A stretch of 64,000 nucleotides of DNA from Agelas oroides. Its lineage: Eukaryota > Porifera > Demospongiae > Agelasida > Agelasidae. Below, piece after piece: positions 18,694-64,000 of this stretch; position 1 is the stretch's first letter; each line of letters opens with the position of its first letter. The translations under genes and the position numbers were made by a program. The stretch covers positions 4,782,085 to 4,846,084 of the forward strand of contig OX422192.1 in assembly GCA_949130485.1 (NCBI GenBank), written 5' to 3'. The notes under the pieces are model-generated. The model worked only from the letters and a program-made list of their open reading frames with translations. It made no database searches and had not been told where the DNA came from.

Positions 18694-19572
18694 TTACAAC
18701 ACGTCCTTTACAGCTACCACATCTATTCGGCTAGTCCAGTTGCCATTGCGATCTCGTCCTCCAGCAACAAGAATCTCCCCACTGGGTAACAGACAGCAGG
18801 CACAAAATGATCTTTCAGTAGGTAAGTCTCCCACTTTGTCCCATGCGTTCTTCTCCAGGTCGTAGATGTGGATGGCTGAGCTTCTTTGTGCGTCATGGCT
18901 TCCTCCCACTGCACACAGAGATTCGCGGAGAGCGATGGCGGCTGAGTTTTCCAGTGGGGCGTCGGGGAGGGTGCGCCACTGTGCGGGTGGCTTGCAAGTT
19001 AGTGTAAGGGCTGGGAGGTACAAGCTGAGTACTTTCTTGCCCAGCGTACCTCCTAGGAGATACAACGTGCCGTGTATAATGGCGGCTGACATTTCACGGC
19101 AGCTCACGGGGAGTGGCGTGGCTGAGAGCCACTGGCTATGGGGGTAAGACGTGTCAAGGATTTCCACTGCAGCTGTGTCAGTGTCACTAGTATCACCGCC
19201 ACCTGCCACCACCAGAAGTTGGTGGTAAGTGGATACAGCTGGCGAGCAACGTGGTGTGTTCATTGGAGGGTAAGGTTGTTTCCAGTTCGTCTGTGAGATA
19301 GAGAACACAGCTACTGTGTTGACCGGCTTGTGAGTCGACTGATCAACACCACCAACCAGTGTAAGCTGACTGCTCACTGCTGTCATGGTGAAACACCAGC
19401 ATTGATATTGTGCTAGTTTACTCCACAGTTGAGTGTGTGGGTCATATCTGTGTATGGCCCTGCAGTTCAGTGCTCTGAGATATAAGTTGTCATGAATAAC
19501 TATTAACTGGGGGAAAGATACTGTTGGCATGTCTGGCAGGTTCCTCCATGTTAGCTCACTGAGGGGGTGTGC
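18694..19572 (-). CDS. Locus 1 (CARD-SH2-kelch), exon 4: kelch propeller
   Basis: The last exon is 293 codons including the TAA at 18694-18696, with an acceptor TTTCAG|GCA at 19572 in phase 0. It encodes a kelch-repeat beta-propeller of about five to six blades. The paired glycines recur in LVGGVD, VVAGGGD, LLGGTLG, CAVGGSHD and LVAGGRD, each followed by conserved aromatic and aliphatic positions. Kelch propellers bind partner proteins, so this is probably the recognition end of the protein (residues about 305-596). The exon is intact and has a close paralogue of identical ancestral length at 54302-55179. A transposon abuts the stop, so the 3' UTR must come from inserted DNA. Confidence 0.87.
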   Translation of the reverse strand, partial: AHPLSELTWRNLPDMPTVSFPQLIVIHDNLYLRALNCRAIHRYDPHTQLWSKLAQYQCWCFTMTAVSSQLTLVGGVDQSTHKPVNTVAVFSISQTNWKQPYPPMNTPRCSPAVSTYHQLLVVAGGGDTSDTDTAAVEILDTSYPHSQWLSATPLPVSCREMSAAIIHGTLYLLGGTLGKKVLSLYLPALTLTCKPPAQWRTLPDAPLENSAAIALRESLCAVGGSHDAQRSSAIHIYDLEKNAWDKVGDLPTERSFCACCLLPSGEILVAGGRDRNGNWTSRIDVVAVKDVL

Positions 19573-22002: not shown

Positions 22003-22052
22003 CTTGCTGTCTGATCCATGTGGTGGCATTGTGTCACTGGACTGTTGAGCAT
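22003..22052 (-). CDS. Locus 1, exon 3: 50-bp linker exon
   Basis: It is flanked by CCCTTGCAG| and AAG|GTACTC. With the single base left over from exon 2 it encodes 17 residues, a polar linker (DAQQSSDTMPPHGSDSK). It converts phase 1 to phase 0, exactly as required between the SH2 exon and the kelch exon. Confidence 0.78.
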
Positions 22053-22342: not shown

Positions 22343-22876
22343 CTGCAGTTAAGCGACGTCGGGGGAGGGGGACTGGAGGGATGGTGGTTTGAGAGGGCAC
22401 TGAAGGGGGGGTATTTTCCACTGTGAGGGAAGAAGGATCCAAATTATGGCCTGGGACTGGATCTTCTTGTGCTTGCCATGCATCAAGTTTCCACGTGCAC
22501 TCACCAACGTGGGTGATTTTGTAGCAGGGGTAGCTGAGCTGTCGGTGTGGACCCTCTGAAATAGGATGATGTTTGAAGTGGTCAATCAGGTCGGGAAGAG
22601 TCGTAAAGCCCTTGTGAGTCCCAGTGAGTTCGTAGAGGCCAGAGTCTTTCCTGTCGATAGGGAAATGTGCAATGCCTTCCAGATGCTTTAGGGACAATGA
22701 GAAGCAACCCACTTTGGTCTCACTCTCTCTCACTAGGAAACAGCCACTGCTAGTATGTTCAAGTCGCTCCTCTGCAGTCTCCCGTGTGATCCCAGTATGA
22801 TACCACACTTCCCTCAGAAGCTCAACAGGAAATCCTACGTCATATGTATGGGCTGACTCCTGAGGTTGGGAGACAG
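22343..22876 (-). CDS. Locus 1, exon 2: SH2 domain and proline-rich tail
   Basis: The acceptor TTTCCACAG|CT is at 22876 and the donor CTGCAG|GTGAAT at 22343. The exon encodes an SH2 domain at about residues 134-228: the entry WYHTGITRETAEERL, the phosphotyrosine-binding core FLVRES with its arginine (about R159), the strand HFPIDRK with the His expected at betaD4, and the C-terminal helix LPDLIDHFKHHP. All key residues are present, so phosphotyrosine binding is likely. The domain is followed by a proline-rich basic motif (PPVPLPRRR), a candidate SH3 ligand. Cytosolic signalling adaptor is the natural inference; no kinase domain is linked. Confidence 0.88.
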
Positions 22877-28015: not shown

Positions 28016-28343
28016 CACAGTTGTTGTAAATGGTCTCAAGCTTTTCCGCCACGTCTTTCAGCGATGGTTGCTTTCTGAGCGCCAAGAGGAAGTTTTGGAA
28101 CTTGCCCGAGTCGACAGCAATCTGATCTCTGACTGCGCTGAGCAGTCTCGTCTTCCTCTGCACGCTGGACAGCCCCACCACGCTCACCTCGTCCACAACT
28201 GTCTCTGATACGACGTCATCGGAATACAGTTCCCACGCGAGAAGCTCCGGGTCCTGTATGCCCCTGATGAGGTCGGCAGAACACTTTCGGAAGGCATCGG
28301 ATGCTGCGCTAACGCCAGCAGCTGAGTTAAGAGCTGTAGCCAT
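28016..28343 (-). CDS. Locus 1, exon 1: CARD-like death-fold domain
   Basis: The ATG at 28343 opens a 109-codon exon ending in AACTGTG|GTATGT (28016, phase 1). It encodes a six-helix death-fold that I read as a CARD: LIRGIQDPELLAWELYSD, then KTRLLSAVRDQIAVDSGKF, then FLLALRKQPSLKDVAEKLE. CARDs assemble signalling complexes by homotypic contacts. The start is chosen because no upstream in-frame ATG or acceptor is evident. Joined to exons 2-4, the protein is predicted at 596 residues with no signal peptide or membrane helix. The CARD assignment is by pattern; another death-fold subfamily is possible. Confidence 0.72.
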
Positions 28344-29950: not shown

Positions 29951-29976
29951 GCTCGATGGAACCTGCTTCGCTCGCC

Positions 29977-30815
29977 CATGGGTCTGGCTGGAGGCAAAGT
30001 GCTACAGTTACATTTGTCCTCAACCAAAGTTGTGTGTGTAACCTTGCTCGCCTATTGACGACAGGATACCTCTCCGAATCACAAGACTCGCTTGATATTG
30101 ACCAGAGGCAGAGAACTGCTGTACTGAAATGTTTCGTGGCAGCTAGATGTGTACACATGGCAGGCGAGACAAATGCTCGTCACAGAGTCGTGCCCACCTG
30201 TCATGCCGTGGGATGGGTAGCCCCTTTGATACGTGTTGCTGACAGCCATGGGTCTGGCTGGAGCCAAAGTGCTACAGTTACATTTGTCCTCAACCAAAGT
30301 TGTGTGTGTAACCTTGCTCGCCTATTGACGACAGGATACCTCTCCGAATCACAAGACTCGCTTGATATTGACCAGAGGCAGAGAACTGCTGTACTGAAAT
30401 GTTTCGTGGCAGCTAGATGTGTACACATGGCAGGCGAGACAAATGCTCGTCACAGAGTCGTGCCCACCTGTCATGCCGTGGGATGGGTAGCCCCTTTGAT
30501 ACGTGTTGCTGACAGCCATGGGTCTGGCTGGAGCCAAAGTGCTACAGTTACGTTTGTCCTCAACCAAAGTTGTGTGTGTAACCTTGCTCGCCTATTGACG
30601 ATAGGATACCTCTCCGAATCACAAGACTCACTTGATATTGACCAGAGGCAGAGAACTGCTGTGCTGAATGTTTCATCAGACTTGTGGCAGCTAGATGTGT
30701 GCACATGGCAGGCGAGACAAATACTCGTCACAGAGTCGTGCCCACCTGTCATGCTGTGGGATGGGTAGCGCCTCTGGTACGTGTTGCCGACAGCCATGGG
30801 TCTGGCTGGAGCCGA
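29977..30815 (+). repeat. 270-bp tandem repeat, three units plus partial copies
   Basis: Units start at about 29977, 30247 and 30517, with a partial copy at 30796. Each begins CATGGGTCTGGCTGGAG. The first two units are almost identical; the third has small indels (extra CAGACTTGTGG near 30677). Because 270 is divisible by three, one plus-strand frame stays open for 813 bp (29956-30768). No domain is recognisable. I treat it as a satellite-like array rather than a gene. Confidence 0.92.
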
Positions 30816-31123
30816 AGTGCTGGAGTTACATTAGCCCCAACTAAAGTTTTGTGTGTATATATATAATTATTCATGTTTGTGTGTGTGTCTTTGTTCTGTA
30901 AATTACGCGCAAATCTACCGGTCAGTCGCAAATGAACCTTTGAACAAGATTTTAAAATCCAGTGGATTTCACGTGGATTTCTGGATTTCAAAGTGGATTT
31001 CTGGATTTCAAGGGGATTTCTGGATTTCATTTGAACCGCTATTATTCTGAAGATACAGTTAAAATATACTCATGAACAATCTTGAACCGCATTCCTCTCA
31101 GCCTATATGCCAACAGAATACAA
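30816..31123. repeat. Short GGATTTCTGGATTTCAA repeats
   Basis: Around 30957-31030 a 20-bp unit containing GTGGATTTCTGGATTTCAA is repeated about four times. The rest of the stretch shows nothing. Confidence 0.7.
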
Positions 31124-31598: not shown

Positions 31599-33640
31599 TT
31601 AGTGTGATATAACAGAGTGCAAATAGTCAGGAGGTCTCCGTTGTCGGCGAGGATATCGGAGTTCGGATCGATAATCAGGATCATCAATAATTTCAAGGTT
31701 TGACCCAACAGGCTCAGGTGGAAGAGAATGCTGATGATGTTGAAGAGGAGCTTTCTCTTGGTTTAAACGCATGTGTGGTGGACAGGCCTTCAGGCGGTTG
31801 AAGTGGACAACTAAACGATTGCGGCGTGACTGGACATTTTGAATGCGATAGGTAACATCTGAGAGTCGACTGACAACTTTGAAGGGTCCTGTCCAGGGAC
31901 GATGGAGCTTTTTAGGACATCCACGAGGGACCACAGGAGAAAACAGCCACACAAGATCTCCTGTTTCAAACAACTTGCCATGGACCTTCCTGTCATATAG
32001 TTCTTTCTGCTGATCCAGCTGATGGCCCATTTGTTCTCGCACTTGTTGATAGGCTTTCTCCAGCCGCTTGCGGAGGTCATCTGCATATTCTGAAGGAGAT
32101 GCCGTATCAGGGGTTGGAGTGCCAAACATAATATCAATCGGCATTCGAACTTGGCGACCATACATCAAAAAAAGGGGGAATACCCAGTTGTGGGGTGCAC
32201 ACTAGTGTTGTAAGCCAAACATAGGGGTCGAAGTTGGCTCTCCCAGTCAAAGGGATGCTTTTCAGCAGTGGTGGCTAGCATATTGAGCAAAGTGCGGTTG
32301 AACCGCTCAACCATGCCATCAGACTGAGGATGGTATGGTGTCATGCATGATTTGTGGATTCCGAGCAGCTTGCACACCTCAGCAATCACCTGTGATTCAA
32401 ACTGCCGTCCCTGGTCAGAATGCAGCTGCTCTGCTGGGGAGAAACGAAAGAAAAACTCATTGGTGAGTTTGTTGGCAACTGTCACTGCTTCCTGGTTACG
32501 GATCGCATAAGCCTCCACCCAACGTGTGAAGTAGTCGCCCACCACTAAAATGTAATTGTTCCCATTTGTGGACTCAGGAAATGGCCCCAGAATATCAGTT
32601 GCAACAATTTGCATGGGGTAACCGGCCTTGATAGACTGTAGGGGAGCTCTGGCCTTTGGTGCAGGAGTCTTCCTCATGGCGCATTTGGCACAGTTCCTGC
32701 ACCAGTTCTCCACGTCATTGTAGTGCCCAGGCGAGTAAAAACGCTCCTTGAGACGGGCGAGTGTTTTGTCCATTCCCAAGTGGCCTGCCAGGACACCCTT
32801 ATGCAGATCCTTTAGTACCTCCTCCTGCAGGGCTAGGGGGACAACCAGCTGTAGAGTCCTCTCGTGATCGACTGACCTCTCGTACCACCGCCACAGAAGA
32901 CCATCCTTTACCACCAACTGGTTCCAGAGTTGGAATAGGCGGCGGGAAGCTGGACTCAAGGCTTTCACTTTGTCAGGGGCAGGTTTCTTGTCTGCTTCTT
33001 TCGACTGCAGTACAAGACCAACTGTGGCATCCGCAAGCTGTAACTGTCGGAGTTCATCCAGCGAGCGACGCTCGGACGGCAATATTCCAGTGACGGCGAC
33101 GAGTGCTGGAGCTGTGCTGTGGTTCTCTCGACCACACTGGGTACAAGGCAGACGAGACAGGGCGTCTGCATTTGTGTGTTTTCTGCCCCGCCGGTGCACA
33201 GTGTCGAAATCGAATTCTTGGAGCCTTTCAAGCCACCGTGCAAGTTGGCCTTCTGGTTCTTTGAAGTTGCGCAGCCAAGTTAGCGATCCATGGTCGGTGC
33301 GTAGAGTGAAGTGGTGGCCAGCGAGGTAGGGCCTAAACTGACGTGTGAAAAAGACAACAGCAAGTAGTTCTCGTCGCGTAACACAATACCGTCGCTCGGG
33401 CTTGCTCAATACGCGGCTGCCATACGCTACCACCCTTTCCATCCCGTTGTCGTCAATCTGTGACAGTACAGCTCCAATACCAGTGTCACTTGCATCCGTG
33501 TCAATGATGAAAGGACGGCTAAAGTTGGGGTGTGCCAACACAGGAGCGGTCGAGAGGTGGTGTCGCAGCTCCTCAAAGGCGCTTTGACAGTCAGCGGTCC
33601 AGTGGAAGGCCCTCGCACGTATCCATATGCTGTAACATTG
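31599..33640 (-). pseudogene. Ty3/gypsy pol: RNase H and integrase, 5'-truncated and frameshifted
   Basis: The frame enters in the connection/RNase H region (HWTADCQSAFEELRHHL, FIIDTDASDTGIGAVLSQ, DHGSLTWL, NADALSRLP). It passes the integrase zinc-binding domain (HLGMDKTLARL, CRNCAKC) and the catalytic core with D (VATDILGPF), D (LHSDQGRQF) and E (GMVERFNRT). A one-base disruption in an A-run at about 32165 shifts the frame before the C-terminal part (LMYGRQVRMP, RLSDVTYRIQ), which ends at 31599. The reverse transcriptase palm, protease and gag are absent. It is distinct in sequence from the element at 8818 and much better preserved. Confidence 0.94.
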
Positions 33641-34349
33641 ATGCTGTAACATCTGCGATATATGCGCTAGCTCACCGTATCCGCTGTCAGGCTCACGGTC
33701 AGGAATTTTTAATAATAGCGTTCTCGTCGTCTCTATTTGCTGCTAGAACAAGAAACTTCAAGCTTCGGGCTGCCAGCCCTGAAATTGACGGTCGTAACCT
33801 TCGCGCGCGTCAGTGAGATACTAATACGCTCGTATCCAGTGCCGACCACACCTAGTTGGATGATCTGGGTGTTGCCTGAGCGCTACACAAGGCGACGGGA
33901 TGTTGCCAAACTGTGAAAGGTGGTAATAAGTAACAACAAAACTCAATATGACTTCAGCAAAAACAAAGTTGTTAATTATTGGAGTGTAAATTAAACGACA
34001 CAAAATACAAAATCATGCATAAACATTGTACTAACAGAATAGGGTGAATGCTACAATACTTAATTAAGCAAACAAAGTAACAACAAAACTCAATATGACT
34101 TCAGCGAAACAAAGGTGTTTGTTATTGGAGTGTAAATTAAATGACACAAAATACAAAATCATGCATAAACATTGAATGAATAAATGAAATATTTTATTAG
34201 AGTGACACGCGATATGCCCGGCCTGATTAGGCCTATGAGTCACTGAAAACAGGTACAAAATAATGGTTAAGTATACAGATATTACAGATTTAAAAGCTGG
34301 TTTCTAGTTTTATACAAGTTATACAAATGTGACATGAATGTCACAATAC
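33641..34349. repeat. Direct repeat of about 95 bp in non-coding DNA
   Basis: AAGTAACAACAAAACTCAAT starts at 33927 and again at 34075. The homology runs through CAAAATCATGCATAAACATTG in both. Otherwise no gene is visible in the interval. Confidence 0.85.
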
Positions 34350-43429: not shown

Positions 43430-43985
43430 TTAGATATAATCCCATATTCTATTCTTAAAGGATGAAAAAGTAGTGTCAACCACTGATAAAGGCAGAGTAT
43501 TCCATGCATTGATAGTACGTGGTACATATGAGTGTTGAAGGTAATTAGTACGTGCAAAGGGACAATGATACAAAAAAGGTCTAATGGTACTAGGAGTTCT
43601 ACCAGTTCTTGTGGAGAAGACATCTGGGGGGAAATAGAGTAAGCCGTGAATGATTTTGTACATGGTTGATAAGTCCAAATAGAGTCGCCTCGTAGATAGT
43701 TTAGGCAGGTCCAGTAATTCTAACAGCTGTTCATATCCTGAGTCCCACTGCTTTGTGCAGAGTTTACATCCAAATTTTTGGATATTTTCCAGCAACGTAA
43801 TGTCTTTGATTGTATATGGACTCCATACTGGGGAGGCGTACTCCAGGTGTGGCCTTACCAATGACATGTATAATCTTAATAATGTTTCTGGTTGAGATTG
43901 TTGGTAGAAGCGTCTGTAAAGCAGACCTAGGAGTCGCCTGGCTTTGGCACAAATGGATTCAATGTGTTGCGTCCATGTTCTTCAA
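43430..43985 (-). pseudogene. 5'-truncated LINE, reverse transcriptase C-terminus (second family)
   Basis: One open frame covers HIESICAKARRLLGLLYRRF, then LVRPHLEYASPVWSPY, GCKLCTKQWDSGYEQLLELL and INAWNTLPLSVVDTTFSSFK. This is the region after the catalytic palm of Jockey/CR1-like elements. The frame ends with a stop at about 43430 and a short 3' UTR. The sequence differs clearly from the LINE at 4240-5040. Truncation at about 43985 is abrupt. Confidence 0.85.
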
Positions 43986-48603: not shown

Positions 48604-50090
48604 CCTCTGGTTAGCTGTAGTTACTCTGTCAGGAATTTTGGCCTCCGTCAGGAAAAAGAAACAGGCATGCCCCATGCACTCCACCTGAGTTGTGTGTAGT
48701 TACTCTGTCAGGAATTTTGGCCTCCATCAGGAAAAAGAAACAGGCATGCCCCATGCACTCCACCTGAGTTGCGTGTAGTTACTCTGTCAGGAATTTTGGC
48801 CTCCGCCAGGAAAAAGAAACAGGCATGCCCCATGCACTCCACCAGAGTTGTGTGTAGTTACTCTGTCAGGAATTTTGGCCTCTGTCAGGAACAATAAACA
48901 GGCATGCCCCATGCACTCCACCTGAGTTGCATGTAGTTACTCTGTCAGGAATTTTGGCTTCTGTCAGGAAAAAGAAACAGGCATGCCCCATGCACTCCAC
49001 CTGAGTTGCATGTAGTTACTCTGTCAGGAATTTTGGCTTCTGTCAGGAAAAAGAAACAGGCATGCCCCATGCACTCCACCTGAGTTGCATGTAGTTACTC
49101 TGTCAGGAATTTTGGCTTCTGTCAGGAAAAAGAAACAGGCATGCCCCATGCACTCCACCTGAGTTGTGTGTAGTTACTCTGTCAGGAATTTTGGCCTCTG
49201 TCAGGAAAAAGAAACAGGCATACCCCATGCACTTCACCTGAGTTGCGTGTAGCTACTCTGTCAGGAATTTTGGCCACTGTCAGGAAAAATAAACAGGCAT
49301 GCTCCATGCATTCCACCAGCTCAACTGAGTAGTTACTCTGTCAGGAATTTTGGCCTCTGTCAGGAAAAAGAAACAGGCATGCCCCATGCACTCCACCTGA
49401 GTTGCATGTAGTTACTCTGTCAGGAATTTTGGCTTCTGTCAGGAAAAAGAAACAGGCATGCCCCATGCACTCCATCTGAGTTGTGTGTAGTTACTCTGTC
49501 AGGAATTTTGGCCTCTGTCAGGAATTTTGGCCTCTGTCAGGAAAAAGAAACAGGCATACCCCATGCACTTCACCTGAGTTGCGTGTAGCTACTCTGTCAG
49601 GAATTTTGGCCTCTGTCAGGAAAAACAAACAGGCATGCTCCATGCATTCCACCAGCTCAACTGAGTAGTTACTCTGTCAGGAATTTTGGCCTCTGTCAGG
49701 AAAAAGAAACAGGCATGCCCCATGCACTCCACCTGAGTTGCATGTAGTTACTCTGTCAGGAATTTTGGCTTCTGTCAGGAAAAAGAAACAGGCATGCCTC
49801 ATGCACTCCACCTGAGTTGCATGTAGTTACTCTGTCAGGAATTTTGGCCTCTGTCAGGAAAAAGAAACAGGCATACCCCATGCACTTCACCTGAGTTGCG
49901 TGTAGCTACTCTGTCAGGAATTTTGGCCACTGTCAGGAAAAATAAACAGGCATGCTCCATGCATTCCACCAGCTCAACTGAGTAGTTACTCTGTCAGGAA
50001 TTTTGGCCTCTGTCAGGAAAAAGAAACCGGCATACCCATGCACTTCACTGAGTTGCGTGTAGCTACTCTGTCAGGAAAGTGAAAGTGGCA
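48604..50090. repeat. 79-bp minisatellite, about 18 units
   Basis: The unit starts GTTACTCTGTCAGGAATTTT, continues GGCCTCTGTCAGGAAAAAG and closes with CATGCACTCCACCTGAGTTG. Variants with CACCAGCTCAACTGAGTA recur at about 49315, 49650 and 49968. A roughly 330-bp block of four units therefore repeats as a higher-order unit. One unit (49500-49545) has an internal 24-bp duplication. Confidence 0.96.
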
Positions 50091-53450: not shown

Positions 53451-54263
53451 GAGTTGCCTGGTAACGTAACCAGGGCACCCTTGGCCCAAGTACAGTTAGT
53501 GGTAGCTCATTCCAGATCTGGTTGAAGGATCACCCTCTCCCCATGAGAAAAATAATTGCGCCCCGGGGATAAAAAATGCCCAAATTGATTGCATCCAGGG
53601 GGTTCAATACGCTGGTTTGATTGTGTCCAAGGGAGGTAATGCTGCTAATTTATGTTGTCCAAGGGGGGAACTGAAATCTGCTCATCCACAGGGGGTGAAC
53701 ACTTATTGAATGGAATGGCACATTAGCTTGGATCAACAGTTTATGCAAATTGTCCAGAAAGCCTAAGGTATGCAGTTCTCTCATGTTTGGCTTTGTGAGA
53801 CCAAAAACAAGTTGCTAGTGTTCATCCAGCATTCCCCTCCTCGCATAACACACACCTCCCTCCAAGCAATTATCCTGTAGCAGGAAATCGGTGATCTTAC
53901 TGAGTTATCCATTGAAGGGATGAGGACAATGTAACATGCCCTGTGCAGAGGCATTTTGTTGTGCATGATTACCGTATGTTGTGCTGGATCAGAGATTTGT
54001 GGAAGTGGGTTCGGCTTGCAAGACTGTTATATCTATGCGGCCTTCCAGTGCTTCATAGCTGATATAGTTTCCTGGGAGTCAGCAGTAGGCAGGTATTAGT
54101 TCACTGTCACTGGTTTACACAAGATCTGCTTAGTTACTGATCCACATGAAGATCTGCTAAGAACCGCAGAACAGCGCACACATCACATGCATCAGAAATG
54201 ACTAAGATCAGAGTGCAAAAAAAAAATCAAGGTCAGAGTACAAAAATGAAGATCAGAAAATGC
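53451..54263. other. Intergenic, no feature seen
   Basis: No supported frame. It contains short degenerate repeats of AGGGGG-type words near 53600-53700. Confidence 0.4.
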
Positions 54264-54300
54264 CTCGTTCCCAGACCTGCTAAGGTGGCCTGGGAACGAG
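54264..54300. mobile_element. 37-bp hairpin MITE directly 3' of locus 2
   Basis: CTCGTTCCCAGACCTGC and GTGGCCTGGGAACGAG form a hairpin one base from the TAA of the kelch exon. The same hairpin, interrupted, follows locus 1. It therefore predates the duplication, or it is part of the gene 3' end. Confidence 0.8.
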
Positions 54301-54301
54301 A

Positions 54302-55179
54302 TTACAACACAACATGTACAGTTGCTGCGTCCATTTTTTGGCAAGTCGAGCCATCTCCTCCAGCTACAACGATCTCTCCGCTCGGTAACAGACAGCACGC
54401 ACAATATTTTCGTTCAGTAGGTAAGTTGAGCACCTTGTTCCACGTGTTCTTCTCCTGGTCGTAGACGTGAATGGCTGAGCTTCTTTGTCCGCCATGGCTT
54501 CCTCCCACTACCAAAAAGACCCATGGACATCGATGACTGTAGAGTACTCCAGCGGGGCGTCGGCGAGTGTACGCCACTGTGCAAGTGGCTTGTCAGTTTG
54601 TGTAAGGGCTGAGAGAGACACACTGAGTACTTGCTTGCCCAGCAAACCTCCTAGTAGGTACAACGTACCGTGTATAATGGCGGCTGACATTAGACGGCAT
54701 CTCACGGGGAGTCGTGTGGCAGAGAGCCACTGACAATGGTTGACAGATGTGTCGAGGATTTCCACTGTAGCTAGGTCAATCCAACTAGTATCACACCCAC
54801 CTGCCACCACCAGACGCTGGTGGTAAGTGGATACAGCTGGGTACACACGAGGTGTGTTCATTGGAGGGTAGGGTTGTTTCCAGCTCCTCTGTGAGGGAGA
54901 ATACACAGCTGCCATCTTGCTCCTCTTGCCAGTGGACACATCAAGACCACCAACCATCACTAGCTGGCTACTTAATGTTGTCATGCCACAACAGCATTGG
55001 TATTTTAGTGGTTCACACCATTGTTCATTGTGAAGGTCATATCTGTGTATGTCACTGTCACTGGAGAGTCCTCTCTCATAGACATACAAGATGTTTTCAA
55101 TTGTTACTGACTGTGGACACCCCATTGCTCTTGGCATGTCTGGCAACTTCCTCCATGTTAGCTCACTAAGGGGGTGTGT
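54302..55179 (-). pseudogene. Locus 2, exon 12: kelch propeller, one-base deletion
   Basis: The acceptor ATTTCAG|ACA at 55179 (phase 0) and a TAA at 54302-54304 give 878 bp. The intact paralogue at 18694-19572 is 879 bp. The frame is broken in an A-run (T-run on the coding strand) at about 54515-54519, where one base is missing relative to the paralogue. Kelch glycine pairs are visible on both sides: MVGGLD, VVAGGCD, LLGGLLG, then in the other frame VVGGSHG and VVAGGDG. The exon should supply residues about 1219-1510. If the deletion is real, the last two blades are lost. Confidence 0.85.
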
Positions 55180-56370
55180 CTGAAATACAAAACAAGTTTA
55201 TTACTTTATAGCGTGTCCTAAAGTGGACGCTAATTACCACCAGCACATGCTCAGAGCTTCGCCACACCATTTCCTGTTACATGTACAAGAGCGTATCAGG
55301 CATAGCAGAGGGCATATAATTATAATTTTTTCACACTATTTTTAGCATTCTGCTTTCTTTCACAGCAGTATTTAATTGTGTATGTCTTCTCATCACCTTT
55401 GGCAACCTGATACACCCTCAGCAGTAGCCATTGCAATAGTATGACATCATACAAATTAGTGGGCAAAGAGTCTAGCACTATAAACAGCTGTATACACACA
55501 TTTTTCTTCACATCAGCACTTGTTTGTGTTAGAACCAGCAGAATTGTAAGCAACTGAAAGAGGCAAATGTCCTAAAGTGCCCACCATTTCCGACATCATA
55601 CTGATAAAAATGACAGTATGGCTTCCCATTGTAGTTGGTAGCTCCATATATCTTTTTAAAGCTCCATTTTCAACTTCCTAGAGCAGCTATTTACTACCTG
55701 TACGACTGCTAGCAATTTTTCTTCCAAACCATGCGATAATTTTGGCTGTACATGGAGCTATATCAACTACCTGGGGTTGCATACTGACAAAATTTGACTC
55801 ACCTTGCATTAGGCTAGCGACTAGCTTTCAGACAATTCTCTAGCAGTGACTAGACTTAAAAGTAACTAATAAACTACACAAGTCTAAAGAGTAAGAGCCC
55901 TAGTGAGAGCACTAGCTAAACACAAACTACTAGCTAGCTATTCAGCAAGCACAAAACGTTTGAATTGAGACAGTGAGCAGCTGCAAAAAAATTGCGCCCT
56001 ACATGTCCCAGACTCAGACTTTGTGGAGCCAAACTAATTACAACTTCCTGTACACTGTCATAGTGTGCAGTAAACATGTGCTGCTGGTCTGCACAGCTCT
56101 AGCATGGAAGCTACATACTTACAACCAACAGCATCAGCTATTTGCACATGGTGCACTAATATAAATCCCAGAATAAATATGCAAGTCTAGCTAAGTCTTG
56201 CATGCTGCTTTTGCATGCCGTTCAGTAAATAGTGGAACTAATGTAGATGTAGAGTACTCCCACTTGAAATAATCTTTTGCTAGAATATATTGAATGCTTA
56301 TTGCAAGTGCACGTCTTTGCAAGATGCCATCAGAATTTTCCTTCAGGGCATTGATAGAAGATCAACTAAC
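55180..56370 (-). other. Locus 2 intron 11
   Basis: The first 320 bp are homologous to the intron next to the paralogous locus 1 kelch exon. No further exon or repeat is supported in the remainder. Confidence 0.7.
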
Positions 56371-56663
56371 CTCTAGTCTAGCTGGTTTAGAAGTCTGGCT
56401 GCCAGCACAGTTGCTGATAACACAGCGGTAGCTCCCTTTGTTTGACTTCTGCACACTGGGGATAGTTAGAGTAGCGGTATCAGACCCGTCCACACCGCTG
56501 CATGGCTGCCACTCCTCACTCACACCCTCTTTGGGTGGATTCCGTTGCCAGTGATAGTTCAGTGGTTCTGTTCCATAAGCTTGGACAGTGAATGTCACGG
56601 GTTCAAGAGAGAATGCCACAGGTTTCGAGTCTTCAGGATGACTGGTGATTCTGGGAGGCTCAG
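56371..56663 (-). CDS. Locus 2, exon 11: Ig domain 6
   Basis: The acceptor CATGCAG|CT is at 56663 and the donor GAG|GTTAGT at 56371. It is phase 1 to 0, matching the kelch exon. The I-set-like Ig fold has core residues in TFTVQAYGTEPLNYHWQ (Trp of strand C) and SYRCVISNCAG (Tyr-x-Cys of strand F). The strand B cysteine is replaced by Phe/Thr, as in the other Ig units here, so the usual disulphide is absent, compatible with a cytosolic location. Confidence 0.82.
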
Positions 56664-57240
56664 CTGCATGTACAAGTGATTGCAACATATAAAGTTTACT
56701 TGGTTATGAGGTCTGTGACCAGCATGCTGCTATGCTAAGTGTGAGCAGTGCTCACTGAAGTTGGGTGGATTCCATTGCCAGTGATAGTTCAGTGGTTCTG
56801 TTCCAGTAGCTTGGACAGTGAATGTCACGGGTTCAAGAGAGAATGCCACAGGTTTCGAGTCTTCAGGATGACTGGTGATTCTGGGAGGCTCAGCTGCATG
56901 TACAAGTGATTGCAACATATAAAGTTTACTTGGTTATGAGGTCTGTGACCAGCATGCTGGTAGCTGGTATGCTAAGTGTGAGCAGTGCTCACTGAAGTTG
57001 ACTCAGGGGGAACCATAAAAACTGGGGGGGGGGGACTACTTATGGTACCATGGATGGTCCCAGGGGGAGCACATAATAAAGTTTACTTGGTTATGAGGTC
57101 TGTGACCAGCATGCTGGTAGCTGGTATGCTAAGTGTGAGCAGTGCTCACTGAAGTTGACTCAGGGGGAACCATAAAAACTGGGGGGGGGGGGGGGGGGGG
57201 GACTACTTATGGTACCATGGATGGTCCCAGGGGGAGCCAT
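56526..57240. repeat. Local tandem duplications next to Ig exon 11
   Basis: 56526-56757 is duplicated at about 56758-56996. The copy includes only the first half of the Ig exon (56759-56893), which runs into non-coding sequence and has no donor. A following block of about 150 bp (TTTACTTGGTTATGAGGTCT to CATGGATGGTCCCAGGGGGA) is repeated at 56928 and 57078, with G-runs of 10 and about 22 bases. Confidence 0.9.
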
Positions 57241-57397
57241 GTACATAATACAGTGCTGTGTTTGCTCTGGGGGGATCGATTATGTATCTTATGTATGTGA
57301 ATGGTTGCTGTTGTGCTTTGATCTTTGTGTACTGCCATTGTGATAACTAATAGTCTGACTCTGGAAACCAATCAACTGTGCATGAACCAGTACTCAC

Positions 57398-57691
57398 CTA
57401 CAGTAAGTGTTGCATACTCTGAGGTCTCACTACCAGCACAGTTGCTGACAGTGCAACGGTAGCTCCCTTCATTCAACTCCTGAACATTGGGGATGGTGAG
57501 TGTAGAGCTGTTTACTTCTGGAAACCTCTCCACATCACACGACTGCCACCCTCCACTCCCATCTCTTGTTTTAATTTCCCACTGGTAGTTTAGTGGCTCA
57601 GTTCCAGTGGCTTTCATACTGAATGTCAGAGGTTTACCTGGGACAGCATTCTTCACGCCACATGGGTGAGTGGTAATCTTGGGGGGGTCAG
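57398..57691 (-). CDS. Locus 2, exon 10: Ig domain 5
   Basis: A 294-bp phase 1-1 exon, acceptor CATGCAG|CT, donor CTGTAG|GTGAGT. Key pieces are the strand C Trp in LNYQWEIKT, STLTIPNVQ, and the strand F GSYRCTVSNCAGS. Symmetric 1-1 phase explains how such domains multiply by exon duplication. Confidence 0.85.
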
Positions 57692-57875
57692 CTGCATGGG
57701 GACAAAAAGCAACATGCTGTTGTGACTGTTTGCACACAATAAATATACCGATATGCTCACTGGAGTTGTGTCCTGGCGCTACAGACAATGCAATGAAAAT
57801 GAGAGTCCAGTGTGTTGAACTGTTAACACTGCCAATGTACAAAGGAACTGTATTGTTTTTCACAACAGTTCTTAC

Positions 57876-58169
57876 CTACAGTCAGTGTTGCACATTCTGA
57901 AGTCTCACTACCAGCACAGTTGCTGACAGTGCAACGGTAGCTCCCTTCATTTGACTTCTGTACACTGGGGATGGTGAGTGTGGAGCTATTGGCCCCTGGA
58001 CAACTCTCCGCATCACACAACTGCCACTCTCCATTGCCCTCTCCTATTTTATGTTGCCACTGGTAGTTTAGAGGCTCTGTTCCAGTGGCTTGGATGCTGA
58101 ATGTTACAGTTTTCCCAGGAACAGCATCCTTTTCCTCTGGTGGGTGGGAGGTGATTCTAAGGGGCTCAG
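57876..58169 (-). CDS. Locus 2, exon 9: Ig domain 4
   Basis: A 294-bp phase 1-1 exon with the same borders. Core LNYQWQHK, STLTIPSVQKSNEGSYRC. It is closely similar to the neighbouring Ig exons, and the gaps are short introns of about 185-190 bp. Confidence 0.85.
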
Positions 58170-58358
58170 CTGCATGTAAAAACCAAAAGCGGAATGTGAT
58201 TTTTTGCACATAAGGCATTGAATAGCTCACTGCAATTGAAGTGAGCACCTGGTGAGTGCCACAAGATGGCACTTGAGTAGTGGTTGGGCTGTAAACTAAT
58301 GTGACTTGGGAAGCAGATTAGTCAATCAACTAGTATATCATTTCATGTCATAACTCAC

Positions 58359-58652
58359 CTACAGTGAGTGTTGCACATTCTGAACTTCCACTACCAGCAA
58401 GGTTGCTGATAGTGCAGTGGTAGCTCCCTTCATTTGATTTCTGCACACTGGGGATAGTAAGTGTTGGGCTTTTTGCTCCTGGAAACCTGTCCACATCACA
58501 TGACTGCCACCCTCGACTCTCATCTCCTGTTTTAAGTTCCCACTGGTAACTTAGACGCTCTGTTCCAGTGGCTTTGATTGTGAATGTCACAGGTTTGCCT
58601 GGGACAGCATCCTTCAGGCTTTCTGGGTGATCAGTGACCCTGGGAGGTTCAT
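58359..58652 (-). CDS. Locus 2, exon 8: Ig domain 3
   Basis: A 294-bp phase 1-1 exon, acceptor CTATACAG|AT, donor CTGTAG|GTGAGT. Core LSYQWELKTG, TLTIPSVQKSNEGSYHC. It is the first Ig after the coiled coil, at about residues 827-924. Confidence 0.85.
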
Positions 58653-58727
58653 CTGTATAGAGGAATCATGTGTGGAGTATGTGTGTGTGTGCTTAAGAAT
58701 AGTTTGTACTTTTCACAACCACCTTAC

Positions 58728-59079
58728 CGAGATGTCTGTGAATTTGAATTTCAACCTTCTTCTTGGCCTCCATCTCATGAACTGCAGTCTCCCTCTCGAA
58801 AGTACTTTGCTGCTTCTGGAACTCTGCTTCCTGCAACCTCTGTCTTAGTTCAGCGGTCTCAGTTGTTAGTGCAATTACAGCTGACAGCAGCTTTGGATTA
58901 CTGGCTGGCTTCTCATGTGACTGAAGTTCACTCTCAAGTTGTGCCACTGTAGCTTCCTTCTCCTGCAGGGAACGTGAAAGAGCTCCAACCTCTTTGGTGA
59001 GACCACTGATACGTGAGTTTCAGGCTGCAATCTGTAGTGACTTGTGTTCCAACTCCTCCTTAGTTGTGATCAGTTGTTG
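58728..59079 (-). pseudogene. Locus 2, exon 7: coiled coil with in-frame TGA
   Basis: The acceptor CTTTATAG|CAA is at 59079 (phase 0) and the donor CATCTCG|GTAAGG at 58728 (phase 1). The exon is rich in E, Q, K, L and A in heptads (LQEKEATVAQLESELQSH, AELRQRLQEAEFQKQ). A TGA at 59020-59022 falls after SLQIAA, at about residue 729, and the frame continues normally after it. No alternative splice pair removes it. Either the protein ends here (NTD-Ig-Ig-Death-coil, about 728 residues) or the gene is inactivated. Confidence 0.8.
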
Positions 59080-59161
59080 CTATAAAGAAAGAAGGTTGAC
59101 TTATAGATGGAAGTTATGCATGCATGGAACAGGTCAATTTAAAGAGCAATGTATACCATAC

Positions 59162-59725
59162 CTCCATTTCACCTCGATCAGACAAAGTTATCTGGAGAAT
59201 CCTCTTTACTTCCTCTTTCACATCATTGTATGATCTTGTTAAATCTTCCTTCTCTTTCTGCAATGCTTTCACTTCTTTGTTCTTCTCTGCTAGTTCAGCT
59301 TGCAGTTTGGATAGTTCATTCTTTACTGCTTGGGCTTCCTGTTGAACAGACTGGAGTTGTTCTTTCTTCTTTTCTAGCTTTTTCTTTAATTTTTTGATTT
59401 CTTCTTCGTTTTTGTTGGTCATCTGTTGAAGCAGTTGGCATTTCTCAACACTATGAGCCAAATCCTTTTGCATTTCCCTGAGCAATAGAGAATCATGCTG
59501 CCTCTGTTGCAGTTCTGATTCAATGTTTCCTGTGTCTTGGGCAAGTTTCTGCACCTCCTTACCAAGTTTGTTCAGCTCACTCATGAGATTGTTTACATTC
59601 TCATTTAGAGGCACTTGTGAATCTCTTGAGGTCTGCAGAAGCTGCTCGATCTCTGACAGTCTTCCACCTAGTTGCTGAAATTCATTTCTGTGAGAATGGG
59701 CTTCAGTAGACTCCAGTCCTGCAGC
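59162..59725 (-). CDS. Locus 2, exon 6: long coiled coil
   Basis: A 188-codon, phase 0-0 exon; the acceptor ATAAAG|GCT is weak in pyrimidines and the donor is ATGGAG|GTATGG. Continuous heptads (IEQLLQTSRDS, KKLKKKLEKKKEQLQSVQQE, ELAEKNKEVKALQKEKEDL) predict a parallel coiled coil of over 150 residues, suggesting a dimer or oligomer. It lies just after the Death domain, a position suited to clustering it. Confidence 0.85.
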
Positions 59726-59791
59726 CTTTATGAGCATGCAATAATGTCATGAATGAATGTCTCCAGGGGTTCACATGCATTCTTATCTCAC

Positions 59792-59856
59792 CATTTGGTG
59801 GTTTGTCTCAGCATACTCCAAGGGCTTATTATCAGCAGTGTTTGGAAGGGTAACTC
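59792..59856 (-). CDS. Locus 2, exon 5: short linker exon
   Basis: A 65-bp exon between CCATCCTACAG|GA and CAAATG|GTGAGA. It changes phase 1 to 0 and encodes about 22 polar residues (VTLPNTADNKPLEYAETNHQ). Exact phase fit with both neighbours is the main support. Confidence 0.75.
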
Positions 59857-59916
59857 CTGTAGGATGGTGCTAGGTAATGCAAGCAACAGGTATCAATAAG
59901 TACAAGTACAACATAC

Positions 59917-60171
59917 CATACTTTATAGCAAGGTGAGAAGCAAGACGCTCTCTCCCTATTCCCACCAATGCCTTGACAACAGCAGACCAGGTCGGAATCA
60001 CCTGTTTCTGCCACTCAATTAGCATCTGGGTACGACACTCTTTAGTATCTGTATGATCTTTTTTAATTGCATCTAGTGTCGACCAATGAAGTCCCAGGTG
60101 GATGCCAAAGTGATACCATTGGTTCAGTGTACTCAATTCATTAAGGACATCACGCAGCTCCCTGATTTTAC
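59917..60171 (-). CDS. Locus 2, exon 4: Death domain
   Basis: A 255-bp phase 1-1 exon. It encodes an 85-residue six-helix Death domain: LRDVLNELSTLNQWYHFGIH, LGLHWSTLDAIKKDH, the conserved Trp-centred TQMLIEWQKQ, and WSAVVKALVGIGRERLASHL. Death domains recruit partner Death-domain adaptors in NF-kB-type or apoptotic signalling. MALT1-type proteins also combine Death and Ig domains (established), though without kelch. Confidence 0.85.
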
Positions 60172-60301
60172 CTGCATGAAATGTAAACCAGAAATAGGTA
60201 CATTGTAGCATGCCTAAACAGAAATGCATTGTCTGAGCATGGCTGTAAGTCTACATGTAGCTTATGATCCACTGAAAATTGCACGACCGACTAGAACTCA
60301 C

Positions 60302-60607
60302 CAATGATGTGATCAGCACATTCTGATATCATTTCTCCAACAACATTAGTAACCACACATCGATACAGCCCTTCAGTGCAAGACTCAATGCTGGAATATG
60401 TCAGTGTTGCAGTGTTTGCTCCCTGAACTGACCAACTGGAGGAGAGGTTCTGCCACTCCTCACTACTGACCCCCTCCACAACAGCCTTCCACTGCCACTT
60501 GTAATTCAGTGGCTCTGTTCCAGTGGCTTTGACAGTGAATGACACAGGTTTGCCAGAAATGGTACATTTTAGCTCTTGTGGATGAGTGGTGATCTTTGGA
60601 CGCTGAG
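60302..60607 (-). CDS. Locus 2, exon 3: Ig domain 2
   Basis: A 306-bp phase 1-1 exon, acceptor TCTCTAG|CT, donor CATTG|GTGAGT. It is more divergent than the other Ig units, but the strand C Trp (YKWQWKA) and strand F YRCVVTN are present. It immediately precedes the Death exon. Confidence 0.82.
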
Positions 60608-61055
60608 CTAGAGAATGAAAAAAGAAGTGTCACTCAACACAATGACACATGTGATATGAACATGTGAAAGATAACTTATACAGTATAAGCATGAATACTG
60701 GGAATATAATAGGTACCAACAGACTGGTAACAACCCTGTATACTTCTGATGAACACCGCACTTAACTCATCATAACAACATTATAACCAACTTTCTTGTG
60801 TATAGTCTACATCTGAAATTCCATGCTCGTATCTGTAACATAGCTGCCTGTATTCAATAGCAGTTACAGGCTGGAATTTAATATCTTTCTAAATGCTGTT
60901 AACTGCCATGTTGTACATAGTGACCTGTTTTATCTTTCCCTGACATTTATGCAATGGAAATGAGTAATCAAGTTTCTGTGTTCTTGTGAGAAGCAGGTTT
61001 ACACCTCAATTGTCATCGTAGAAACCTCTTGTCTTTCACCTTAAGATTAACTCAC

Positions 61056-61349
61056 CTACAGTGAGTGTTGCACTTTCTGAAGTCTTGCTACCAACATAGT
61101 TGCGGACAGTACAGCGGTAGGTCCCTTCGTTTGACTTCTGCACACTGGGAATGGTTAGTGTGGAGCTGTTTGCTTCTGGAAAACTCTCCACATCACACAA
61201 CTGCCACCCTCCATAACCATTTCCTGTTTTTATCTCCCACTGGTAGTTCAAAGGCTCTGTTCCAGTGGCTTGGACAGTGAATGTAAGGGATTTGCTAGGG
61301 ACAATATTCTTCATTTCTTGTGGATGAACAGTGATTCTAGGAGGTTCAT
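61056..61349 (-). CDS. Locus 2, exon 2: Ig domain 1
   Basis: A 294-bp phase 1-1 exon, acceptor ACATCCAG|AT, donor CTGTAG|GTGAGT. Core LNYQWEIKTG, TLTIPSVQKSNEGTYRC. It is closest in wording to domains 3-5, separated from them by the divergent domain 2 and the Death/coil block. Confidence 0.85.
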
Positions 61350-61605
61350 CTGGATGTGGAAATACAGTGTGAGCCATGTTTCCACAATGCTACACACATT
61401 TATAGTACACAAGTTGTGATCATCAGCTACATTTTCTACTGCACGAGTCACTGCCCCCCAAAAAACAGTTATTTGTACATATTGTCTAACAGCCTTAAAT
61501 AAATTCTCCAGTTTTGATCCTAACCCTTCTCTCTCTGTGTTTGTTACTGCAAAAATTGGAGACAAGGGAAGATTAGATTTAGGAGGTATAGAGAGTCATT
61601 CATAC

Positions 61606-62248
61606 CTTTCTCCCCATAAAGGGATTCAAAATCAAACAGCTTGCTGTCCTTCCAGCAGGACATGAAGGTGGAGCAGTTCTCTGTGGTCACCAGGCGGAGG
61701 TCTGCTCCTTTTGTGTTTTGCCGATTGGGAGAAACCAGGAAAAGTTCTGGCTCAACTATGACAAGCCAGTCCTGAGATGGTTTTGTTTCCATGGATTTTA
61801 AAAATACCGACAGGAGATCCAACTGCATGGCATATTTAACCATCTCAATCTCAAGGAGAAACTTTTTCAAACATGATTCAGAGCTAAACACGATATGAAA
61901 GAGTGGGGACTGTTCGTAATAGAATGTATCCACATGGTAGACCCCACACTTGTGCAGAACGGGTGAAATTGTGTTTGCAATCAACCAAAGCTTGGTGCTG
62001 ATAGTGGTACCACCATGGCAGAAGCTGATGACGGGCTCTTCATAGACGCCTTCCTTGGATGTGACCGTCACATTCTCTCCGTTCACCTGCACCTTCGTTC
62101 TCAACAGGAAGAAGTCGTTGTGGTAGCTGGTGTGGACATTGAAGTCGGAATCCATCTCAATGTCTACCAGACGTTGCATCGCCATTGGAGCGTTCAAAGA
62201 GAAGCAAGTTTCCAAAGTACGTAGCTCAGCAATTTTTTCAAATAACAT
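61606..62248 (-). CDS. Locus 2, exon 1: N-terminal domain of unknown family
   Basis: The ATG at 62248 gives 214 codons plus one base to the donor GAGAAAG|GTATGA (61606, phase 1). The product is a compact alpha/beta-looking sequence (TSYHNDFFLLRTKVQVNGEN, VISFCHGGTTISTKLWLIAN, DWLVIVEPELFLVS) with no signal peptide, so the assembled protein is likely cytosolic. I do not recognise the domain. The frame is open a little further upstream without another ATG, so the start is the best but not the only choice. Together the 12 exons would encode about 1510 residues if both lesions are ignored. Confidence 0.75.
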
Positions 62249-62613
62249 TCCGCAATCCACAGCCCCCACTCATGGGAACGCCAAGTCAAACCAAATCTCT
62301 CTTGTTCTAAATGTTCGCACGAAATTCTTTCATTCTTTGGAAATTCCCGGGCACGTGCACTACTCCCACCCTCTCTCGCCGGGAGGCGCGCGCAGGCGGG
62401 GCACGAGACTAACACTACTCTGCGACGTTGCAGGTCACTCAGCCACCTCGGCAGGAGCAGCGAGATGCAAGTCTGCTGCCCCCTTTGCTCATGATGACCC
62501 TCCAGGTGAGTATGTAGCCACTGTGGCGCCAGGAACTATGAGTTCGGTTGCTAGGAGCGTGGAGAAGCCACCGTTTCTGAGTTTGAGGGAGTCGGCGCCA
62601 CGAAGGAAGCGAG
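62249..62613. promoter_or_regulatory. Possible bidirectional promoter
   Basis: A 365-bp interval separates the first ATG of locus 2 (minus) from the ATG of a plus-strand first exon. It is GC- and CpG-richer than its surroundings (GGGAGGCGCGCGCAGGCGGG at about 62380). No TATA box is placed convincingly. This is inferred from the head-to-head arrangement. Confidence 0.4.
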
Positions 62614-62964
62614 ATGTCTCTTTACCCGAAGCTCAGCGATTCTTTGTATCTGTCCAGCGATGACGAAGTGAACAACAGCGAAGGGTTTGAGTTGGACGGG
62701 GGCTCGGACAACTTGGGGAGACAAGAACTGCTCAACAGGGAGACGCGTGTGCGGCATGAACAAAAGAACATGCCACGTGTATTGAACGAGGGAGAGTTTG
62801 CAAGTGGCTCCTCCTTTCTTGAGACCCCGCGCAGCGAGAGACACTCAAATGCTACCCTCTCACTTGAAGACTTTGAGCAGAAGTACTTGGGCAGGAGATA
62901 CAACACTCAAAGAAGAGACAATTTGTTGGCTTTGGCCAACAGAGGATATTCTAGTTCAAGAAGG
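62614..62964 (+). CDS. First exon of an unknown acidic/polar protein (partial)
   Basis: The ATG at 62614 opens 117 codons to a potential donor AGAAGG|GTAGTC at 62964. The sequence is polar and acidic at first (LYLSSDDEVNNSEGFELDGG), then carries a KYLGRRYNTQRRDNLLALAN segment. No domain is recognisable and a disordered cytosolic N-terminus is likely. The candidate donor coincides with the end of a foldback MITE (62965-63662), so the real exon end may have been disrupted. If unspliced, the frame runs on to a TAA at 63045. Confidence 0.5.
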
Positions 62965-63662
62965 GTAGTCTACAATCACTGGAGTGGATTAGTGGACTGG
63001 ACTAGTGGACTGGACTGGTGGACCAACATTTCTTGTGCTCTCTAATGAGACCTTAATCCCCTGTAGGCTTAGCCATGATGCATGTTAGTCTTTATAAACC
63101 TGGAAACACAATTCTCTGTCTGTAGATTTGTAGTGATTAACTCTCAGACAATGTAGTGTTACAGAGGCCTTGCTTCAAATTGCGCTTAGTGTGCAGCATG
63201 GTGTGAGGTAAGTTTCAGCTTCATACCCAGGCCCCAGTTTTTCTGATTGCCTGGGAACTATAACTTTCACCTTCCATGTTATGATGCCATCTGAGTACAA
63301 ATCTTCAGTGAAGGTTCTGGTCACGGCATATGACACTTTCAGTCGGATAAATGACTCATACACTTGCAGTATACTACAGTGCCTAATCTGTAAGCGTTAT
63401 CACTCTGCAAGTATAATCAAGTACTCAGGAAGACTCATTCCAAGTGACATCTGTATTGCCGATGGTGGGTGCCTTGAGGCTTGCCAAGTAGACTTATAGG
63501 GCTAAGTGTGCATATGCTTCATGTCATCTAGTTGTTAAATATTCTCACTAGAGTCTGTGAAAGAAAGTGGCTGTGTTTGTAAGTGCAACCTTATAGGTGA
63601 GTTCTCATTAGAGAGCAATTTTTAGTCCAGTCCACCAGTCCAGTCCAGTGACTGTAGACTAC
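62965..63662. mobile_element. Foldback MITE with GTAGTCTACA ends
   Basis: GTAGTCTACAATCACTGGAG and its near-complement (CCAGTGACTGTAGACTAC) bound a 698-bp element. The ends also contain GGACTGGACTAGTGG tandem words. It is inserted at or just inside the end of the plus-strand first exon. Confidence 0.75.
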
Positions 63663-63689
63663 CCATTTCAATGACTGCTTTGAAGCAGG

Positions 63690-64000
63690 TTTTATCAAAC
63701 ACTGACATTGCAAACAGGATTGTGTTGGCACAGCTTGGCCATCTCACACTCGGGTTTCAGGCATTGTATCACAGGCGGTGCCAGAAAGGCATTATATCCT
63801 ACACCACTTTCTTTGGTTAGTTCCCACATCTCCTTTTCATATGAAGTATATTCCATCTTTCTGCCAGTGTAGGAGTGTAATTTGTGACCAGCAAAGAATT
63901 TACCAATTCCCGGCATTCTTCCTGCGACAGTGGAACCGTAGAGATTTTGTTCACCATATCGCTGATGAACTTTTCACGAGTAGTAAGGAAGACACCTTCA
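63690..64000 (-). pseudogene. Fragment with Cys pair, possibly KDZ-related, at window edge
   Basis: The minus-strand frame has IQCLKPECEMAKLCQHNPVC, a Cys/His cluster like those preceding KDZ catalytic domains. Upstream, another frame (FLTTREKFISDMVNKIS) runs into the window end, implying a frameshift or intron near 63880. Too little is visible for a firm call. Confidence 0.3.

Follow-up and report, generated by a model that had tools for sequence, protein, structure and literature searches.

Sponges tell self from non-self and live with a dense microbiota, and to our knowledge the molecules that confer this specificity are poorly known. Here we describe a gene of the demosponge Agelas oroides that joins an N-terminal domain (the N domain), immunoglobulin (Ig) domains, a Death domain and coiled coils to a C-terminal kelch propeller, together with its relatives in the same genome. 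It runs from 62248 down to 54302, on the minus strand, in a 64,000-nucleotide stretch of assembly GCA_949130485.1 (contig OX422192.1, positions 4,782,085 to 4,846,084), to which we refer throughout as the window. Parts of this layout are familiar from other proteins. MALT1 combines Death and Ig domains in one cytosolic protein, with a domain order different from that of the window gene, KLHL proteins have BTB-BACK N-termini, and the fungal HNWD proteins are built around a NACHT core. The het-d and het-e genes of Podospora, which are of this HNWD type, are described as members of a multigene family with a beta-propeller reader, in which a few positions per repeat on the interaction surface are under diversifying selection and repeats are exchanged (PMC1805685). 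In the sponge Dysidea avara, NLRs have undergone a large lineage-specific expansion, carry a CARD or DEATH N-terminus and are sensors mostly regarded as cytosolic (PMC12909245); the word kelch is absent from the main text of that paper. Exposure to microbe-associated molecular patterns shifts the expression of a D. avara gene with "Ig domains and a CARD domain", and of DEATH-domain and "Kelch motif containing" genes in both D. avara and Aplysina aerophoba (PMC6208332). In the passages of that paper that report these genes, Ig, DEATH and Kelch stand as separate annotations, and no Ig-Death-kelch architecture appears there.

We compared the window gene and an unbroken relative, L072, with these systems. 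The likeness to HNWD, as far as the published account of het-d and het-e describes them, lies in the multigene organization and in a propeller interaction face that appears to be under diversifying selection, whereas the fungal propeller is of the WD40 type and the sponge genes combine a kelch propeller with Death, Ig and coiled-coil parts; by analogy, het-d/het-e may be the closest working parallel to the sponge kelch family. Sponge NLRs, in the description cited above, carry NACHT and LRR, and Pfam found neither in the window exons scanned nor in L072. The preliminary description of the window, which was made from its sequence, noted that the gene recalls MALT1 with no protease in it. The second half of that statement holds, as we found no caspase-like protease domain in the window exons scanned or in L072, kelch and coil standing in its place. 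Kinship with MALT1 is unsupported, and we rejected it on the missing protease domain and on the solved relatives of Ig exon 4 (the one Ig exon compared), which are led by titin (2e-22) and DSCAM (2e-17), with MALT1 far down at 5e-5. Among open-licence papers, we found no description of an Ig-Death-kelch or N-Death-kelch family.

A gene order repeated across the genome

Eleven exons of the window gene could be placed; their internal borders all show AG acceptors and GT donors, and their phases are consistent. Although twelve had been counted in the preliminary description, its account of borders that obey phase arithmetic, and of an order running from the N domain through two Ig domains, Death, coil and four Ig domains to kelch, was borne out. 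The exons encode the N domain, two Ig domains, the Death domain, two coiled coils, four Ig domains and kelch, with phases of 0-1 for the N exon, 1-1 from there through Death, 1-0 and 0-1 for the two coils, 1-1 for Ig exons 3 to 5 and 1-0 for Ig exon 6, the kelch exon being entered in phase 0. Four of the six Ig exons are exactly 294 bp long with phase 1-1, as had been said of most of them, and Ig exons 2 and 6 depart from this pattern (Table 1). With Pfam, Ig_3 and I-set lay over the cut-off on Ig exons 1, 2 and 3 (three of six scanned), and Ig exons 4 to 6 were located by a local profile. The Death exon reached 30.4 bits with PF00531, against a cut-off of 22.6, and Kelch_1 was over the cut-off in both of the frame pieces into which the kelch exon falls. 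The ATG at 62248, from which the gene was read in the preliminary description, was rejected as the start, because the 21 residues that it would add show no conservation in the relatives; translation probably begins at the Met at 62185.

Relatives were sought in the whole genome (259 Mb in 141 contigs, the window lying on contig C10). The N exon gave 61 matches, 57 of which were kept as N places after removal of four second fragments. For kelch, 82 of 151 matches were mapped, down to an E value of 2.1e-24, with three fragments and all weaker matches excluded; for Ig, 133 of 150 matches were mapped, and for coiled-coil exon 2 (coil2) all 41. A Death exon lies downstream on the same strand at 52 of the 57 N places, a count based on 75 of 150 Death matches that comprise the higher-ranking ones and a number of weaker matches chosen for their nearness to N places. 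Kelch follows on the same strand, within 13 kb and before the next N exon, at 37 N places, and Death, coil2 and kelch are all present at 30. As a control, kelch was sought upstream on the same strand, where it occurs at seven N places, each paired with a neighbouring tandem gene, and on the opposite strand, where it occurs at none. The module order of the window gene is not due to chance, because it recurs co-linearly at dozens of places. Forty of the 57 N places are on C10, in three groups of 12 (0.93-1.54 Mb), 6 (4.3-4.91 Mb) and 22 (8.0-9.32 Mb). The earlier suggestion of a family of death-fold genes sharing a kelch C-terminus, with which a survey for genes ending in this kelch exon had been proposed, is supported by the 37 co-linear places and by a second locus in the window, described below, which ends in the same kelch type. 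Diverged N-domain genes (37-43% identity) that have a Death exon and no listed kelch lie at C2:23632001-23689483, C6:2212154 and C9:6602164, and perhaps represent an older N-Death core.

The relative L072 (C10:4585000-4594600) is one open frame of 1271 amino acids in nine exons, which have the same phases as those of the window gene and follow one another as N, Ig, Ig, Death, coil1, coil2, Ig, Ig and kelch. Four Ig stretches and kelch were over the Pfam cut-off in the whole L072 protein, and its Death exon, scanned alone, reached 26.1 bits (cut-off 22.6), a weaker match than that of the window copy, compared with 24.2 for that of another relative, L070. Each of the seven exons compared between the window gene and L072 has a nonsynonymous rate (dN) below its synonymous rate (dS); in the Death exon, for instance, the values are 0.030 and 0.073.

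Pfam holds no relative of the N domain, giving weak scattered matches only (the best, 0.0019, in 1 of 20 members), and none was found in the Protein Data Bank (PDB) or in the genome-contig and viral-contig collections searched. The domain is constrained, with a ratio of dN to dS (omega) of 0.37 among 27 members, and may be a second effector or regulator. The proteins of the family are likely to be cytosolic, since L072 has no strongly hydrophobic segment (the highest 19-residue mean is 1.21) and all six Ig exons of the window, as judged by eye from their translations, are without the B-strand Cys of the canonical disulphide.

Variability and history of the kelch exon

Across 30 kelch exons, entropy is highest at places that correspond from one blade to the next. 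The kelch of L050 has five GG motifs and one blade without GG, in keeping with the roughly six blades of a kelch propeller. We defined a ring of putative ligand-facing positions by a rule drawn from Keap1, which takes the positions 15 and 14 residues before each GG and the position one after it. The rule is based on Ser363, Ser508, Ser555 and Ser602, which stand 15 before the GG of their blade, on Arg415, which stands 14 before, and on Arg380, Tyr334, Tyr525 and Tyr572, which stand one after; the Keap1 contacts Asn382 and Arg483 fall outside it. The letters and residue numbers used here are those that we take to be Keap1's, and 203 of these letters (from about residue 407 on, and without Tyr334, Ser363 and Arg380) match PDB chain 1zgk_A over their whole length. 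In the literature, the serines and both arginines are listed among the residues that interact with Nrf2, and the tyrosines among those of the top side that interact with ligand (PMC12266349). Blade 1 of the sponge family is without GG, and its three ring columns were placed by position.

Substitutions were counted by parsimony on a FastTree tree of 28 kelch exons, from which the window copy and its twin (see below) had been dropped. The 18 ring columns hold 268.6 nonsynonymous versus 18.4 synonymous changes, which corresponds to an omega of 3.22 (one-sided P 4.5e-9), compared with 0.68 for the remaining 273 kelch columns, and the nonsynonymous count of the ring was reached by none of 20000 random sets of 18 columns. 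When the set is slid by 2 to 8 or by -2 to -6 residues, omega is 0.50-0.90, and at shifts of +1 and -1 it is 1.49 and 1.56. A slightly different first ring set, corrected for one insertion, gave 3.15 versus 0.67 for the rest; in pairwise counting, this first set gave 2.48 versus 0.65, and 23 of 10000 random sets gave a ratio as high. The ring exceeds the rest in all four subgroups (ring/rest omega of 3.65/0.67, 3.14/1.09, 2.76/0.62 and 1.64/0.56). In the 16 closest kelch pairs, ring omega is 4.08, and the dN of the ring (0.256) is six times the synonymous rate in the rest (0.042). Some variable columns outside the ring rule, such as 39, 90 and 139, are as fast as the ring. These counts suggest that the ring residues have been diversified by positive selection, with a binding face that changes far faster than the rest of the protein, as expected of a recognition system. 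Given this apparent diversifying selection on the binding ring, kelch is very likely the recognition domain of these proteins. The preliminary description had called kelch a reader, which gains support from the predicted ring, although the kelch of the window copy itself is broken.

N exons and kelch exons of the same genes differ in how far they have diverged. Between L020 and L021 the N exon is 99.83% identical, with 0 nonsynonymous differences and 1 synonymous difference, and the kelch exon is 91.64% identical, with ring differences of 16 nonsynonymous versus 1 synonymous. The pairs L016/L017 (N exon 98.29%, kelch 93.26%) and L013/L015 (96.85% and 95.32%) go in the same direction, more weakly, and over the 45 pairs formed by 10 genes the N and kelch distances are uncorrelated (r = 0.00). 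Because the two identities part in these pairs and the distances are uncorrelated, the kelch exons appear to have evolved separately from the N exons, for which gene conversion or unequal exchange is the simplest explanation.

Lesions of the window copy and other features of the window

The window gene had implicitly been taken as intact, and two lesions were overlooked: coil2 contains an in-frame TGA (59020-59022), and kelch is frameshifted at about 54514-54517. The residue aligned to the TGA is Cys in the relatives L070 and L071 and His in L072. At the frameshift, the window has one base fewer than its twin, an inverted copy of the gene about 10 kb away that is 98-99% identical. The twin carries the same coil2 TGA and is without the frameshift, but its kelch has a TAG of its own further along. 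The two copies belong to an inverted repeat with arms of about 13 kb and a spacer of about 0.9 kb, aligned at 99.18% and 98.16% identity, in which the kelch-side segment is more diverged than the remainder; it may be a palindrome with gene conversion or an assembly fold-back of haplotypes. Rescue of the coil2 stop by exon skipping was rejected, since coil1 ends in phase 0 and Ig exon 3 begins in phase 1, so that the frame would be lost. We also rejected a selenocysteine reading of the TGA, as L072 has His at that place, although L070 and L071 have Cys (no SECIS search was made). The window copy and its twin are probably both pseudogenes, or would yield at most an N-Ig-Ig-Death-coil piece, and as a working sensor, which it was first thought to be, the window copy is disabled by its stop codon and frameshift. 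A tandem duplication with a period of 230 (56531-57000) spans the 5' half of Ig exon 6, and a partial Ig fragment (56751-56891) lies in the intron upstream of that exon, near long G runs at about 57020 and 57180.

The second locus of the window, here called locus 1 (18703-28343, minus strand), has a CARD-like N-terminal domain, for which neither Pfam nor the PDB gave a match, followed by SH2 and kelch. The same order occurs at C10:1001616/1002855/1004763 and, within 1.7 kb, at C10:4737467/4737005/4736141, and its presence at these two co-linear relatives supports locus 1 as one CARD-like/SH2/kelch gene. Read in this way, the order at locus 1 and its relatives puts one predicted type of kelch reader on at least two different signalling ends.

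Elsewhere in the window, open frames at 31599-33742 (minus strand) resemble a polyprotein of the Ty3/gypsy type, with RNase H and integrase recognized by eye, and other transposon-like frames lie at 9674-10129 and 43430-43981. There are tandem arrays at 29976-30857 (270 bp, 3.2 copies) and 48616-50077 (79 bp, 18.3 copies). Outside the window, contig C141 (22,436 bp) looks mitochondrial, with TGA read as Trp and an atp9-like frame between cob and nad4 (names assigned by eye), and its cox1 (L075, 5332-8134) is interrupted by an intron of some 1.2 kb in which a LAGLIDADG-like open frame lies. A mitochondrial atp9 in this gene order is a pointer to demosponges.

Table 1. Positions in the window of the exons, lesion and repeat of the Death-kelch gene and of the parts of locus 1
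Feature	Position	Strand	Basis or remark
N-terminal domain exon	61606..62185	-	start at conserved Met; omega 0.37 in 27 relatives
Ig exon 1, 294 bp, phase 1-1	61056..61349	-	borders and Pfam
Ig exon 2, 306 bp, phase 1-1	60302..60607	-	borders and Pfam
Death domain exon, 255 bp, phase 1-1	59917..60171	-	PF00531
Coiled-coil exon 1, phase 1-0	59162..59718	-	coiled-coil-type Pfam matches, none over cut-off (25 of 91 families listed)
Coiled-coil exon 2, phase 0-1, with in-frame TGA	58728..59079	-	borders and local profile
In-frame TGA in coiled-coil exon 2	59020..59022	-	common to inverted twin; open in L070, L071 and L072
Ig exon 3, 294 bp	58359..58652	-	borders and Pfam
Ig exon 4, 294 bp	57876..58169	-	borders, local profile and PDB comparison
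Ig exon 5, 294 bp	57398..57691	-	borders and local profile
Ig exon 6, 293 bp, phase 1-0	56371..56663	-	borders and local profile
Kelch exon, frameshifted near 54514-54517	54302..55179	-	Kelch_1 in both pieces; comparison with twin
Portion of left arm of large inverted repeat carrying twin gene	53508..64000	.	arms C10:4835592-4848991 and 4849924-4863070
Locus 1 kelch exon, intact, same type	18703..19569	-	local profile 496.6 bits; Pfam kelch
Locus 1 SH2 domain, upstream of kelch	22518..22847	-	PF00017, 67.6 bits; co-linear relatives
Locus 1 CARD-like N-terminal domain	28017..28343	-	likeness by eye; adjoins SH2 and kelch in L065

A proposed mechanism and its alternatives

The window gene is probably a disabled member of a tandem-expanded family, probably of demosponges, that joins a death-fold end to kelch. 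Beyond that, we incline, with limited confidence, to the reading that the family is one of demosponge death-fold sensors, probably cytosolic, whose kelch reader is diversifying and shuffled, and in which the window gene has lost its function. In working members, the constrained N domain and the Death domain would form the signalling end, the coiled coil and Ig domains would serve as an oligomerising stalk, and the C-terminal kelch propeller would recognise a ligand through the same ring of positions at which Keap1 contacts Nrf2. The bound ligand would bring the Death domains together, through the coil and Ig domains, or release them, and the Death domains would recruit a death-fold adaptor and so lead to a defence or cell-death response. 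The kelch ring would be diversified by positive selection, and kelch exons would be exchanged or replaced independently of the N-terminal exons.

A number of observations weigh against a family of such sensors, and several of them lend something to one or other alternative. Death goes unlisted at an E value of 0.001 in the whole L072 protein, the Death exon of L071, at 22.7 bits, is barely above the cut-off of 22.6, and several distant N places (on C2, C6 and C9) show just N and Death, or N alone. At 20 of the 57 N places no kelch was detected within 13 kb on the list of 82 kelch matches, the intron between Ig exon 6 and kelch in the window gene is longer than 1 kb, and both the architecture and the family are known here from genomic DNA, all of which would suit N/Ig/Death exons and kelch exons that are separate neighbouring genes. 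We rejected separate genes as highly improbable on the co-linearity counts, with identical order and strand at 3-10 kb in 37 places and none on the opposite strand, and on the phase-compatible open frame that runs across L072; moreover, the kelch matches start with a common THPLSELTW-like stretch without Met. As to the ring, the rule was written after the variable columns had been seen in the entropy table, gene conversion may have skewed the tree used for the parsimony counts, and in L016/L017 the ring dN of 0.263 is barely above the ring dS of 0.242. Even outside the ring, kelch omega climbs to 1.09 for the C20 subgroup and to 1.10 for the closest pairs; this, with the decay of the window copy and its twin and the apparent exchange of kelch exons, could reflect relaxed constraint and gene conversion in place of selection for recognition. 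Such relaxation is very unlikely to be the explanation, given that the ring omega is well over 1 while columns two or more residues off stay at 0.50-0.90, and that ring and rest still differ almost fourfold in the close pairs.

The variable ring coincides with the substrate site of Keap1, and among solved kelch chains the nearest are designed SAKe proteins, followed by KLHL20, an influenza NS1A-binding protein and KLHL12. The sponge kelch is like Keap1 and the KLHL proteins in its propeller, its ligand ring and its sequence relatives in the PDB, and its exons could be E3-ligase substrate adaptors or redox sensors of that kind, diversified for substrate range, with Death and Ig as a scaffold. 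However, Pfam found no BTB, BACK or F-box in the window exons scanned or in L072, the partners are Death and Ig or CARD-like and SH2 instead, and in our judgement a hypervariable ring that diversifies so fast is unusual for a housekeeping adaptor, which makes this alternative unlikely. Much better placed is the view that the window locus is just a pseudogene, or one of two haplotypes joined by a fold-back in the assembly, and is uninformative on any working system; for this one locus we consider it probable. The coil2 TGA is present in both arms of the inverted repeat, each arm has a distinct kelch lesion, the short T run adjoining the window frameshift could mark a sequencing error, and no full protein is possible from the window copy as assembled, its frame being interrupted by both TGA and frameshift. 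Stops and frameshifts are not rare in other members either, occurring in 7 of 31 weaker N matches and in 2 of 41 coil2 matches (the latter counted on a query that begins downstream of the TGA in the window copy); the Death exon of L070 has a TAA close to its end, and the kelch of L062 is broken, its first part lying in another frame. For the window copy the pseudogene part is likely true. Yet among the 30 kelch exons that match best, 27 are unbroken (the others being the window copy, its twin and L062), the 30 best N matches contain no stop, and L072 is open throughout; as for a fold-back, the arms differ, and are hence not a single read repeated. Decay is common in the N-Death-kelch family, yet intact members exist.

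For the family of death-fold sensors with a kelch reader, a wider role can be sketched, which we put forward tentatively and rate as unlikely. It may be the intracellular half of a sponge self/non-self system, with an anticipatory kelch repertoire in which selection and exon swapping among tandem genes diversify the binding ring, with Death and CARD-like ends, and with the N domain as a new effector or adaptor. If the reading of the family as sensors is true, it would be an animal receptor class parallel to NLRs and to the fungal HNWD genes, and a tandem family with a death-fold end and a kelch ring apparently under selection makes specificity testable.

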